A DNA stretch of 59,759 nucleotides from Bacteroidota bacterium (GTDB lineage Bacteria; Bacteroidota; Bacteroidia; Bacteroidales; UBA7960). Of the stretch, positions 53,537-59,759 are shown in pieces. Under the pieces are notes generated by a model. It worked only from the letters and a program-made list of their open reading frames with translations, was not told the origin of the DNA and did no database searches. Positions within the stretch are counted from its first letter, which is position 1; every line of letters starts with the position of its first letter. The DNA lies in the NCBI GenBank assembly GCA_007693555.1, contig REDJ01000088.1, forward strand, positions 1 to 59,759, in the 5' to 3' direction. A program made the translations under genes and the position numbers.

Positions 53537-54298
53537 ATGCTCACAGCATCACGCATAAAACAAATCAGCTCTCTCTCTCAGAAAAAATTCCGGAAGGAAT
53601 TGGGATTGTTTGTTGCCGAAGGAGAAAAGGTGGTAACAGAGCTGCTTGAGAATGCAAACTGGGAAATACATCAAATTTTTGCAATAGATAGCTGGTTTGA
53701 TAAACACAACGTACCGGCAAATATACTAGCTGAAAAAGTTAGTCCCAAAGATTTAAGCCGGATTAGCACACTTGTAACCCCCAACCAGGTGCTTGCAGTT
53801 GTAAAAATACCTGAAAGAATTATCGACAATATTCGTTTGCAAAAACGATATACTTTGCTGTTGGATAATATTCAGGACCCGGGTAATTTTGGGACAATAT
53901 TGCGCACCGCAGACTGGTTTGGAGTTGAAAATATCATTTGTTCTGAAAATACAGTTGAGCTCTATAATCCAAAAGTAATACAGGCAAGTATGGGCTCTTT
54001 TATGCGCGTTAATGTTTTCTATAATTCTCTTAAAAAGTTCTTAGAAAGACTGCCATCTGGTTTTCCTGCAATGGGGGCTATGTTGGAAGGTGAGAATATT
54101 CATCAAAGTAAATTACCCAAAGAAGGCATTCTAATCATCGGAAATGAATCGAGGGGTATTTCACCAGATTTGACAAAATATATAAACCACAAATTAAATA
54201 TTCCTTTAAATCGCCTGCGAGGAAAAAATAATTTTCCAGACTCACTCAATGCAGCAGTAGCGAATGGTATTATACTTTCGCATTTGAGTAAACATTAA
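53537..54298 (+). CDS. TrmH/SpoU-family RNA 2'-O-methyltransferase
   Basis: 253 residues. N-terminal RNA-binding domain (QKKFRKELGLFVAEGEKVV), then the SPOUT knot fold: LDNIQDPGNFGTILRTADWF (motif 1), IIGNESRGISPDL (motif 2) and the C-terminal PDSLNAAVANGIILSHL (motif 3, usually ESLN). Methylates ribose 2'-O on rRNA or tRNA; the target nucleotide is not evident, a rRNA is most likely for this clade. It follows rplI after 87 bp and a terminator. Confidence 0.92.
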   Translation: MLTASRIKQISSLSQKKFRKELGLFVAEGEKVVTELLENANWEIHQIFAIDSWFDKHNVPANILAEKVSPKDLSRISTLVTPNQVLAVVKIPERIIDNIRLQKRYTLLLDNIQDPGNFGTILRTADWFGVENIICSENTVELYNPKVIQASMGSFMRVNVFYNSLKKFLERLPSGFPAMGAMLEGENIHQSKLPKEGILIIGNESRGISPDLTKYINHKLNIPLNRLRGKNNFPDSLNAAVANGIILSHLSKH

Positions 54299-54353: not shown

Positions 54354-54587
54354 ATGGAAGTTTTCATTTTGGCATTTATACTTGTAGCAGTTGCCGTAGG
54401 TGGGATTGCAATAAAAATGTTTGTACTCCCTGGTGGTACCTTTACCAAAACCTGTGGCAGCACATTTGACCCCAAAACAGGCGAACGTAAGCCCTGTGCA
54501 TGTGCTACAGGACAACCGGAGGATTGTCATAACTCAGAGGAAAATAAATCCTCTGAACTGATTATCAATTTGAAAAAAACAGAATAA
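54354..54587 (+). CDS. Small membrane protein with four cysteines, NqrM-like
   Basis: 77 residues: one N-terminal transmembrane helix (about 2-24) and a soluble tail with C34, C48, C50 and C58 in the pattern C-x13-C-x-C-x7-C (KTCGST, KPCACATG, EDCHN). NqrM (DUF539) has the same plan: one helix, then a CGG start, a CDC pair and a final Cys, and it is needed to insert iron into NqrD/NqrE. The gene converges on apbE and lies next to the nqr operon, as nqrM often does. I therefore call it a likely NqrM counterpart; overall identity to NqrM may be low. Confidence 0.7.
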   Translation: MEVFILAFILVAVAVGGIAIKMFVLPGGTFTKTCGSTFDPKTGERKPCACATGQPEDCHNSEENKSSELIINLKKTE

Positions 54588-55688: not shown

Positions 55689-56588
55689 TTAAGAATTTCT
55701 TATTAAGGGTTCGGTATGTATTGAGATGTGAGTTTCTTCACCATAAGTTTTACGCAGGTTTTTTTCGAGGTCGATGGTAATATTGTGAGCTTCTTCAATG
55801 TTTAAATGATTTTTCACTTTGATATGAATATCAATAGCAATATGATTTCCAATTTTCCTTGTTTTCAAATCATGAGGGTCGTGAACTCCTTCAACAGCAG
55901 AAGCTATTTCAAGAATCTCCTGCTCATGCTCCCTGGGCAGGGATGTTTCAATGAGTTCAAGCAGCGTATCCCGTGTAATCCTTATGGCAATCTTAAAAAT
56001 AAAGAAGGATACAATAATTGCAGCCAATGGATCAAGTATAACCCAGTTATCTCCCAGAAAAATTGCTCCGCCAATTCCCAGCAAAGTTCCGAAGGACGAA
56101 TAAACATCACTGCGATGATGCCACGCATTTGCAACCACTGCCTGACTATTAGTTTCATTACCCACCTTTATGGTATATCTGAAAAGAATTTCCTTAATTA
56201 GAATAGAAATAATAGCAGCATATAAAGCCCCCATACCTGGTTTGGGTATTAAATCACCCTGATGTACAGAATAAATTTTCATTACTCCGTTGTAAAACAA
56301 ACCCAGGCCAACCAATATCAATACACCACCCACAAAAGCTGTAGCTAAAGTTTCTACTTTTCCATGTCCGTATTTGTGATTATGATCTTTCGGGCGAGAT
56401 GCAACTGATAAACTACTTACTACAACCAAATCTGTAGCAAAGTCACTGACCGAGTGCACTCCATCAGCCACCATGGCCGAGCTTCGCGCCAAAATACCGG
56501 CAATAATTTTAATAACGGTAAGAACCAGGTTGGATATAAATCCAATCCAGATAATCCGCCGGGCCCGCGCATTGGAAGAATTTACCAT
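55689..56588 (-). CDS. Cation diffusion facilitator family transporter
   Basis: 299 residues, six helices and a C-terminal cytoplasmic metal-sensing domain. The CDF metal site is H45-x3-D49 (ADGVHSVSDF) and its partner HHRSD in AWHHRSDVYSS, whose His/Asp pattern suggests Zn2+, Fe2+ or Mn2+. Antiports cation out of the cytoplasm against H+. It lies between the nqr terminator and apbE and is probably co-transcribed with apbE. Whether it supplies metal for NQR assembly is unproven. Confidence 0.92.
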   Translation of the reverse strand: MVNSSNARARRIIWIGFISNLVLTVIKIIAGILARSSAMVADGVHSVSDFATDLVVVSSLSVASRPKDHNHKYGHGKVETLATAFVGGVLILVGLGLFYNGVMKIYSVHQGDLIPKPGMGALYAAIISILIKEILFRYTIKVGNETNSQAVVANAWHHRSDVYSSFGTLLGIGGAIFLGDNWVILDPLAAIIVSFFIFKIAIRITRDTLLELIETSLPREHEQEILEIASAVEGVHDPHDLKTRKIGNHIAIDIHIKVKNHLNIEEAHNITIDLEKNLRKTYGEETHISIHTEPLIRNS

Positions 56589-56645: not shown

Positions 56646-57908
56646 TTAACCACCAAAATCGTCTAAGTCAATATTTTCTTCCGGTACTCCGAGATTATCA
56701 AGCATTTTTAACACTGATTCATTCATGATTGGCGGACCACAAAGGTAATATTCAACTTCTTCAGGTTCCTCATGCTTACTAAGGTAGTTGTCAAGAACCA
56801 CCTGGTGAATAAATCCGGTGTATCCATCCCATTTATCTTCGGGTAAGGGTTCGGAAAGAGCAATATTAAATTTAAAATTTGGAAAATTCTTTTCAATTTT
56901 ACGAAAATCTTCCTCATAAAAGACTTCACGTTTTGAGCGTGCTCCATACCAGTAGGAAACTTTTCTGTCAGTTTTTAAAGTTTGGAACAGGTGGAATATA
57001 TGCGACCGCAGAGGCGCCATGCCTGCACCACCTCCAATATAAACCATTTCTCTTTTGGTATCCTTGATGAAGAATTCGCCATAAGGACCTGAAATTGTTA
57101 CTTTATCACCAGGTTTTCTGGCAAAAACATATGATGAACAAATTCCGGGATTTACCTTCATGAACTGGTTCTTTTCATTATCCCATGGCGGTGTAGCAAT
57201 TCTGATATTTAGTTTGATAATATTTCCCTCTGCAGGATGATTTGCCATGGAGTAGGCCCGGAAAACAGGTTCAGAGTTGCGCATTTTCAAATCCCACATA
57301 TTAAGTTTATCCCAATCTTCACGAAACTTTTCCTGTACCTCAATATCTTTTCCAAAATCAACTTCACAAGGAGGTACATCAATCTGGATGTATCCACCTG
57401 ACTCGAAATCAAGCTCTTCCCCTTCGGGCAATTTTACAACAAACTCCTTGATAAAGGTTGCCACATTGTCATTGGATACAACTTCGCATTCCCATTTTTT
57501 AATACCGAATATCTCGGCGGGAATTTGAATATTCATATCCTCTTTCACCTTAACCTGGCAGGAAAGCCTCCATTTGTCCTGAACTTCCTTACGGGTAAAA
57601 TATCCAATTTCTGTGGGGAGAATATCACCGGCTCCATCGAGCACCTGGCACTTACAAACCGCACATGTACCGCCTCCTCCACATGCACTGGGCAAATATA
57701 TGCCGTTTTCTGCCAGTGTATTAAGTAATGTTCCACCGGCATTTGCCGTCAGTTCCTTATCATCGTTAATAGTAACTTTGACGGGTCCGCTGGGGATAAG
57801 TTTATGACGGGCATAAAGCAGTACACCAACCAGCATCAGCATAACGGCAAGAAACATTACCACACTTAAGGTAACAACCCATAAATTACTTGCTTCTAAT
57901 AATATCAT
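56646..57908 (-). CDS. nqrF: Na+-translocating NADH:quinone oxidoreductase subunit F
   Basis: 420 residues. One N-terminal helix, then a [2Fe-2S] ferredoxin domain with C76, C82, C85 ([10 protein letters not shown]) and C117, then FAD-binding RAYSMANHP and NADH-binding [12 protein letters not shown]. Entry point for NADH electrons, passed via FAD and 2Fe-2S to the membrane subunits. Ends with the family's LDDFGG. Last of the visible nqrC-D-E-F order. nqrA and nqrB are outside the window. Confidence 0.98.
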
Positions 57909-57936: not shown

Positions 57937-58554
57937 TTATAACTCTATTCCCATAAAACTCATAAATGCTATACCCATGAGTCCGGTTATGATATAAGTA
58001 ATTCCTAGACCCCTTAATGGATCAGGAACATTCGAGTAACGTATTTTTTCACGAATTGCAGCTATTCCGACAATGGCAAGAAAAAATCCAACGCCGCTAC
58101 CCAAACCAAAAGAAACAGCCTCTGTTATGTGACCAAAATTTCTTTCCTGCATAAAAAGGGACCCTCCTAATATAGCACAGTTTACAGCAATAAGCGGGAG
58201 AAAAATACCAAGACTACTGTAAAGTGTTGGGCTGAATTTTTCAATGATCATTTCAACTAACTGTACCATGGCAGCAATAATAGCAATAAACATGATAAAT
58301 GTGAGAAAACTTAAATCTACTGTAGCAAATTGGGGTCCCAGCCAGGAGAGTGCTCCTCTTCCAAGAATAAAACTTTCAAGCAAATAATTTACCGGTACGG
58401 TAAATCCAAGCACAAATATTACTGCTGCACCCAAACCCACCGATGTGTTTACTGTTCGGGAAACAGCAAGATAAGAACACATTCCCAGGAAGTAGGCAAA
58501 AACCATATTGTCAATAAAAATTGACTTAACAAATATATTTACTAAATCTTGCAT
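57937..58554 (-). CDS. nqrE: Na+-translocating NADH:quinone oxidoreductase subunit E
   Basis: 205 residues, six helices. Half of the symmetric NqrD/E pair that holds an intramembrane Fe centre, with C26 in LGMCSYLAVS and C126 in AVNCAILGG as its two ligands. Their iron is what NqrM delivers in Vibrio. 28 bp after nqrF start region; 37 bp from nqrD. Ordinary length. Confidence 0.97.
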   Translation of the reverse strand: MQDLVNIFVKSIFIDNMVFAYFLGMCSYLAVSRTVNTSVGLGAAVIFVLGFTVPVNYLLESFILGRGALSWLGPQFATVDLSFLTFIMFIAIIAAMVQLVEMIIEKFSPTLYSSLGIFLPLIAVNCAILGGSLFMQERNFGHITEAVSFGLGSGVGFFLAIVGIAAIREKIRYSNVPDPLRGLGITYIITGLMGIAFMSFMGIEL

Positions 58555-58591: not shown

Positions 58592-59251
58592 TTAACTTAC
58601 ATCAACAAGACCTCTGTCCCGATGACGATGTATCCAGATTATAACACCTACAGTAATCAGAGCCATTGGGGGTAATATCATGAAACCATTATCCACGTAG
58701 CCGATGTCATATACAAAATTAGGTATCATTTGATACCCCATAAGAGTACCTGATCCTAAAAATTCTCTGATAGCAGCTAACAGAAGAAGAATACTTCCAT
58801 AACCTGCTGCATTTCCTATGCCATCAAGAAAAGATGGCCAAACTTTATTTTGCAAGGCAAAAGCTTCTAACCTGCCCATGATTATGCAGTTGGTAATAAT
58901 AAGACCTACAAAAACTGATAACTGTCGGCTTACGTCATAAACAAAAGCCTTAAGAACCTGGTCAACCAGAATAACCAATGATGCAATTACAGTAAGCTGC
59001 ACAATAATACGAATCCGCGGTGGTATGCCATGACGCAGTATAGATATAATAACATTGGCTAATCCCATAACCGCTACGACGGCAATTGCCAGTACCAGAG
59101 AAGCTCTCAACTGGACAGTTACAGCCAGCACAGAACATACCCCGAGTACCTGAACGGTAATAGGATTACTTGTACCAATGGGCTCACTTAACAATTTTCT
59201 GTTTTTTGGTGAAAACAGAGTTTCTTTGGGGGCTGAATTATTTCCGCTCAT
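58592..59251 (-). CDS. nqrD: Na+-translocating NADH:quinone oxidoreductase subunit D
   Basis: 219 residues, six helices, the partner of NqrE. Iron ligands C39 in VLGVCSVLAVT and C122 in ITNCIIMGR are present. It has a 20-residue cytoplasmic N-terminal extension before the family's NPITVQVLG. Its ATG overlaps the nqrC stop by 4 bases. Confidence 0.97.
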   Translation of the reverse strand: MSGNNSAPKETLFSPKNRKLLSEPIGTSNPITVQVLGVCSVLAVTVQLRASLVLAIAVVAVMGLANVIISILRHGIPPRIRIIVQLTVIASLVILVDQVLKAFVYDVSRQLSVFVGLIITNCIIMGRLEAFALQNKVWPSFLDGIGNAAGYGSILLLLAAIREFLGSGTLMGYQMIPNFVYDIGYVDNGFMILPPMALITVGVIIWIHRHRDRGLVDVS

Positions 59252-59759
59252 AATGTTTTTTGTTTTTCAAAATAAGGTTTATAAACTTGAAGGCCATCCC
59301 GTAACATCGCCGTTACACCATTGGATGTGATTGTACCACCGGAAATTCCATCTACAGCATGGGGGTCATCAGCGGGAGCTCTCCCCCGCACTACTCTAAC
59401 GGATTGAAATTCACCAGTATCATCAAATATCCTTTTTCCAATAAATTGCTGTTCAAAGGGAGGATCTGCTATTTCCGCACCAAGACCGGGTGTCTCACTT
59501 GCATGATCAAAATTGGCTCCGGCAATCGTATTCAAATCTCCTTTGAAGCTCAGATACCCCCAGATTGCACCCCACAATCCGTTACCTCTTACCGGAATAA
59601 TATAGTAAAGTTCACTCTCAACATCGGCAATAAACAAGGGAAGCTGTCTTTCTTCAACAGGTTTTCTGTTTTCATCACGCAAATCCACTTCAAAAGCATC
59701 TCCATCAATCTCCTCACCTAAATGATTCAGTACCTTGGTATCTATAATATATTGCTCAA
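59248..59759 (-). CDS. nqrC: Na+-translocating NADH:quinone oxidoreductase subunit C (N-terminus outside window)
   Basis: The frame is open to the last base of the window; the GTG at 59688 is internal, since in-frame residues VLNHLGEEIDGDAFEVDL continue upstream. Visible part is the periplasmic FMN-binding domain (FMN_bind). The ApbE target is the threonine in DGISGGTITSNGV near the C-terminus, where FMN is phosphoester-linked. The motif has SGGT where many NqrC have SGAT. apbE is 3.5 kb away. The N-terminal helix is not visible. Confidence 0.95.
   Translation of the reverse strand, partial: EQYIIDTKVLNHLGEEIDGDAFEVDLRDENRKPVEERQLPLFIADVESELYYIIPVRGNGLWGAIWGYLSFKGDLNTIAGANFDHASETPGLGAEIADPPFEQQFIGKRIFDDTGEFQSVRVVRGRAPADDPHAVDGISGGTITSNGVTAMLRDGLQVYKPYFEKQKTL

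Follow-up and report, generated by a model that had tools for sequence, protein, structure and literature searches.

The window, a stretch of 59,759 nucleotides from a Bacteroidota bacterium of the order Bacteroidales (GCA_007693555.1, contig REDJ01000088.1), carries close to its end a small gene beside apbE and a set of nqr genes. The following features were identified:

53537..54298, plus strand: SpoU-type rRNA methyltransferase, 55 bp upstream of the small gene and on the same strand
54354..54587, plus strand: candidate Bacteroidota NqrM gene, 77 aa, single helix, four Cys
54357..54425, plus strand: N-terminal transmembrane helix, codons 2-24, the stretch closest to NqrM
54453..54455, plus strand: codon of C34, the aligned counterpart of C33, which is the first Cys in proteobacterial NqrM
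54495..54503, plus strand: C48-x-C50
54525..54527, plus strand: codon of C58
54667..55677, minus strand: apbE, FAD:protein FMN transferase (flavin loader of NqrC), PF02424 E 2e-84, convergent with the small gene
55689-56588: CDF cation transporter gene, between apbE and nqrF
56646..57908, minus strand: nqrF (TIGR01941, E 1e-196)
57937..58554, minus strand: nqrE, whose C26 and C126 coordinate the intramembrane [2Fe-2S] cluster; NCBIfam equivalog over the cut-off
58592..59251, minus strand: nqrD, with the ligands C39 and C122; NCBIfam equivalog over the cut-off
59248..59757, minus strand: nqrC, partial, cut by the contig end, with FMN_bind domain and SGGT flavinylation motif

An earlier note on this DNA had described the protein as one N-terminal helix followed by four cysteines, encoded convergently with apbE and followed by nqr genes with intact iron ligands, and the window bears out each of these points. 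All four cysteines (C34, C48, C50 and C58) fall exactly at these positions in the translation, and residues 2-24 are confidently predicted by AlphaFold as an N-terminal helix, the only confident part of the model (pTM 0.37). With a single predicted N-terminal transmembrane helix and a length within 60-90 residues, the protein has the size and build of NqrM. The minus-strand apbE faces the small gene, and nqrF, nqrE, nqrD and the partial nqrC follow on that strand, with the CDF gene intervening after apbE; the four ligand cysteines of NqrD and NqrE are present in their translations.

The SpoU-type gene is a conserved upstream neighbor of the small gene in the window's family and in related Bacteroidales families, and the two are possibly co-transcribed. 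The CDF gene recurs between apbE and nqrF in many relatives of the window's family. The source genome carries both NQR and RNF, the latter on a different contig (C159), where an rnf cluster that looks complete (B, C, D, G, E, A; L132:10415-16233) has a gene for an RseC/MucC protein upstream.

Conservation of the small protein

The ORF at 54354-54587 is a true gene and not a chance frame, since relatives were found in 35 of 59 related genomes (first set, own genome included) and several residues are invariant in 16 aligned relatives, namely all four Cys, K21, F30, D39 and P40. An overlapping 69-aa ORF on the minus strand was rejected. The C-terminal tail SSELIINLKK (window 54550-54584) is kept within the genus and shows a faint likeness to the tails of the family f42 proteins described below (SSKFIIKVDKLK).

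Two profiles were used, A1, built from the 16 aligned relatives of the window's own family only, and A4, which is phylum-wide. Among 392 sampled Bacteroidota genomes, A1 recovered 36 solid relatives, whose middle pair is usually C-xx-C outside the window's family, against C-x-C within it. The scan of named genomes places the family across the phylum, in Bacteroidales MAGs (many of them from one sediment series), Flavobacteriaceae, Crocinitomicaceae, Chitinophagaceae and others. The four-cysteine plan is present in 80/80 kept loci, which were selected by likeness to the window protein.

Relationship to NqrM

Scans of the 77-aa protein and 21 relatives against Pfam and NCBIfam matched no model over the cut-off, leaving noise of faint zinc-ribbon, CcoS and FeoB-associated hits, and a PDB sequence search gave no match. 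The earlier note had proposed a search with the NqrM profile (PF04400, DUF539). This profile, which does detect an NqrM-like sequence, is blind to the family: neither the 77-aa protein nor its relatives matched over the curated cut-off, and no such match was present in the 72 NQR-bearing Bacteroidota genomes tested (0/72). Short matches below the cut-off in 33 of the NQR-bearing genomes look like chance. Viral contigs searched with an NqrM-like query also gave no match.

We assembled a reference set of 12 proteobacterial NqrM sequences from plasmid records and chromosome-sized records filed as plasmids, and the resulting model ranked the window's family first among 18,551 small ORFs; at E<=0.1, its matches (39/39) all belonged to the window's family or to f42. 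Profile-profile comparison with NqrM (hhalign) gave 75% for the window clade, 83% for a wider set and 95.6% for A4. Against A4, the real-family controls CcoS and the NqrF N-terminus reached 12.8% and 17.9%, respectively; the reversed NqrM control gave 3.2%, and permuting the helix columns of NqrM in 200 trial alignments gave a mean of 5-9% and a maximum of 71.5%. It is mainly the helix that yields the match, with the register kept between Met1 and the first Cys; the tail contributes the Cys plan but little score, and permuting the NqrM tail leaves the match undiminished. We conclude from these profiles that the window's family is a remote homologue of NqrM, although by strict membership it stands outside PF04400.

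Occurrence with NQR and RNF

NQR status was assigned in the 392 sampled genomes, 70 of which have NqrD over the cut-off; NqrF passed its cut-off in the same 70 genomes and in two fusion proteins. Co-occurrence with nqr, which the earlier note had put forward as a check, is near perfect: A4 finds the family in 57/70 NQR-positive genomes and in 1/322 NQR-negative ones, and relatives are thus rare in genomes without nqr; the earlier note had held that common relatives there would speak against its proposal. Fisher's test gives p = 1e-54, a value that ignores the relatedness of the genomes, many of which are kin, and so overstates their independence. The solid A1 matches lie in NQR-positive genomes in 36/36 cases.

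The single NQR-negative match is a broken remnant in G431 (L166, G431:C1:946014-946127), with in-frame stops directly after the helix (...VKDGRFSC*HVKDN). It is also the only match in the RNF-only genomes (1/26), where intact copies are absent (0/26). G431 has an RNF-type gene and neither nqrA nor nqrD over the cut-off; because of the stops and the lack of both genes, this copy looks like a gene decaying after the loss of NQR. A role of the family in RNF was rejected, no RNF-only genome of the 26 holding an intact copy.

In 58 nearer relatives, the family is present in 48/52 genomes with any nqrA or nqrD (two of them assigned from nqrA fragments alone) versus 1/6 without. The exception here is G044, an NQR-negative MAG, 91% complete, with an intact relative. 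Conversely, no family member was found in G037, which is NQR-positive and 98% complete. Among the listed members of genus g41, those with NQR carry the gene and those without it do not. Apart from G044 and the G431 remnant, the family was found only in NQR-bearing genomes. As a separate observation, G047 (C12, C42, C165), a 79% complete MAG, has three nqrA genes and no nqrD over the cut-off.

Linkage and joint transfer

In 15 genomes, drawn from seven families, no more than 8 kb separates the small gene from nqrD, and its immediate neighbor is usually apbE. In most genomes of the Flavobacteriaceae type it is unlinked to nqr, yet it tracks NQR; at the one such locus that was read, it is found near lipA and sigma/anti-sigma genes. 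In family f35 (G107, G134, G169, G204, G244, G252, G331, G375), the nqr operon is split, with nqrF on a contig separate from that of nqrC-D-E.

The NqrF of G212 shares 78% identity with a Sphingobacteriales NqrF but 56% with those of two genomes from its own family; the best identity of its small protein (69%) is to the small protein of that same outsider. Judging by these identities, the nqr cluster of G212 was horizontally acquired with its own small gene included. NqrF and the small protein are both nearest to the same outsider, so nqr and the small gene moved together as a cassette.

Departures from the four-cysteine plan

Family f42 accounts for 12 of the 13 NQR-positive genomes without the family among the 392 sampled. 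In 10/10 f42 loci read, another small protein of one helix, in which the motif CCGGGxC...C is invariant, adjoins apbE or lies on the same stretch (L103:7357-7587, minus strand; also L101, L104-L108, L111, L114 and L115). No Pfam model matches it over the cut-off. Profile comparison with NqrM gives 93.5%, and the f42 protein looks like another NqrM branch.

Four conserved cysteines with the first near residue 33 characterize the window protein and most lineages, but not most other Bacteroidales families, in which the relative reads roughly GxFPxxHVxxNxxMRxxGIxC. In 20 such loci (L144-L163, notably L145, L154 and L159), the position of C34 holds His in 10/20 and Glu, Ser or Arg in the others, with L157, L160 and L162 scored partly by eye. 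Beyond the helix, the His types retain one or two Cys and the Glu/Ser/Arg types two to five, which often form a C-terminal cluster. The ligand cysteines of the [2Fe-2S] cluster in NqrD and NqrE are invariant in 31/31 loci read, including Bacteroidales loci whose small protein lacks the first Cys. A lack of cysteine conservation, which the earlier note had named as grounds for refuting its proposal, is thus seen in part: the cysteines are kept in most lineages, but C34 is replaced in most other Bacteroidales families. The four-cysteine site is therefore not universal, though the tie to NQR is.

The first Cys of NqrM (Cys33) is reportedly essential in Vibrio. We offer tentatively, as a possibility somewhat less likely than not, that NQR in many Bacteroidales may be matured by an NqrM that dispenses with this supposedly essential residue and employs either His with a single Cys or a Cys cluster shifted to the C terminus. 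NqrM could then not work through one fixed four-cysteine iron site, and the phylum would have evolved several chemistries for loading the same NqrD/NqrE cluster.

Proposed function and alternative explanations

We suggest, with good confidence, that the product of the gene is a diverged form of NqrM, anchored in the membrane and acting specifically in the maturation of NQR. The identification as an NqrM candidate made in the earlier note is supported by the remote homology and by the co-occurrence with NQR. NqrM is a maturation protein that seems to be needed for inserting the [2Fe-2S] cluster (PMC12174285), and the proteobacterial protein has been linked to the NqrD/NqrE cluster (PMC12174285, PMC6209661), iron delivery there being itself a proposal. 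Because of the homology to NqrM and the occurrence with NQR, the small protein most likely assists in getting iron into NqrD/NqrE. Its helix would anchor it in the inner membrane, and the short Cys domain is most likely cytoplasmic, since positive charges come after the helix. This domain may bind iron or an Fe-S intermediate and pass the iron to those cysteines of NqrD and NqrE that coordinate the intramembrane cluster, while ApbE would separately attach FMN to NqrC and NqrB.

The protein could instead be a small permanent accessory subunit or an assembly scaffold of NQR, with the cysteines forming a structural zinc or disulfide site. Such a role would suit the close tracking of NQR, the weak resemblance of some members to zinc ribbons and the retention of relatives that lost most of their Cys; we consider it unlikely given the homology to a [2Fe-2S] cluster maturation protein (PMC12174285) and the preservation of the four-cysteine plan over most of the phylum. 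That the small gene adjoins apbE in several families might also suggest a partner of ApbE in flavin loading rather than of NqrD/E. RnfG/RnfD-type subunits of RNF are ApbE substrates too, and intact copies are nevertheless missing from the 26 RNF-only genomes, while a CxC/CxxC site suits a metal more than a flavin, which makes this role very improbable.

Slightly less probable still is convergence, in which a small helix-plus-Cys protein unrelated to NqrM merely resembles it and has come to lie near nqr by chance. PF04400 does not match and the similarity sits mostly in the helix, as would be expected under convergence, but permuting the helix columns abolishes the match, real single-helix families reach at most 18% against A4, and chance leaves the co-occurrence and co-transfer with NQR unexplained.

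NQR is a sodium pump of Bacteroidota, anaerobic and marine groups included. Its origin has been placed in this phylum (PMC12174285), and in the literature searched we found no description of NqrM outside Proteobacteria. In Bacteroidota, the small protein very probably fills this gap. A named NqrM candidate is now available for nearly every NQR-bearing genome sampled, together with a profile for annotation. Natural variants without the Cys reportedly essential in Vibrio allow the working of NqrM to be tested directly, and for expression of Bacteroidota NQR in other hosts the finding would indicate which helper to add.

Comparison with known systems

CcoS/FixS (PF03597), which acts in cbb3 oxidase maturation, is also a small single-helix respiratory assembly factor and has an SGQY/F segment after the helix; its matches are faint (E about 0.015), and it differs in lacking the Cys plan, in a profile comparison of 13% and in serving a different enzyme. 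The FeoB-associated Cys-rich membrane protein (PF12669) likewise combines a single helix with Cys, but its faint matches (E 0.1 and 0.5) are below the cut-off and it is tied to FeoB rather than to NQR. Neither the PF12669 nor the PF03597 profile matched the window protein over the cut-off, and neither feoB nor ccoNOP lies beside the window gene, whose neighbors are SpoU, apbE, CDF and nqr. RseC/MucC (PF04246) is a membrane protein with Cys that acts as an accessory of RNF/Rsx, the sister pump of NQR; it belongs to another family, has its Cys domain before two helices and serves RNF rather than NQR.

From NqrM itself the Bacteroidota family differs by the lack of a PF04400 match, by the absence of the NqrM CGG in most members, and by a longer first loop (13 residues) and a conserved GxF-type segment ahead of the Cys; most other Bacteroidales families also lack the first Cys, unlike NqrM. 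In contrast, NqrM and the window protein both have one N-terminal helix and a first Cys at position 33/34 after S or T. The middle pair is CxC in gamma- and betaproteobacterial NqrM, as in the window, and CxxC in the alphaproteobacterial one, as in the Flavobacteriaceae types, and a last Cys after this pair is common to NqrM and the Bacteroidota family. Both genes sit by apbE or nqrF, and both are tied to NQR.
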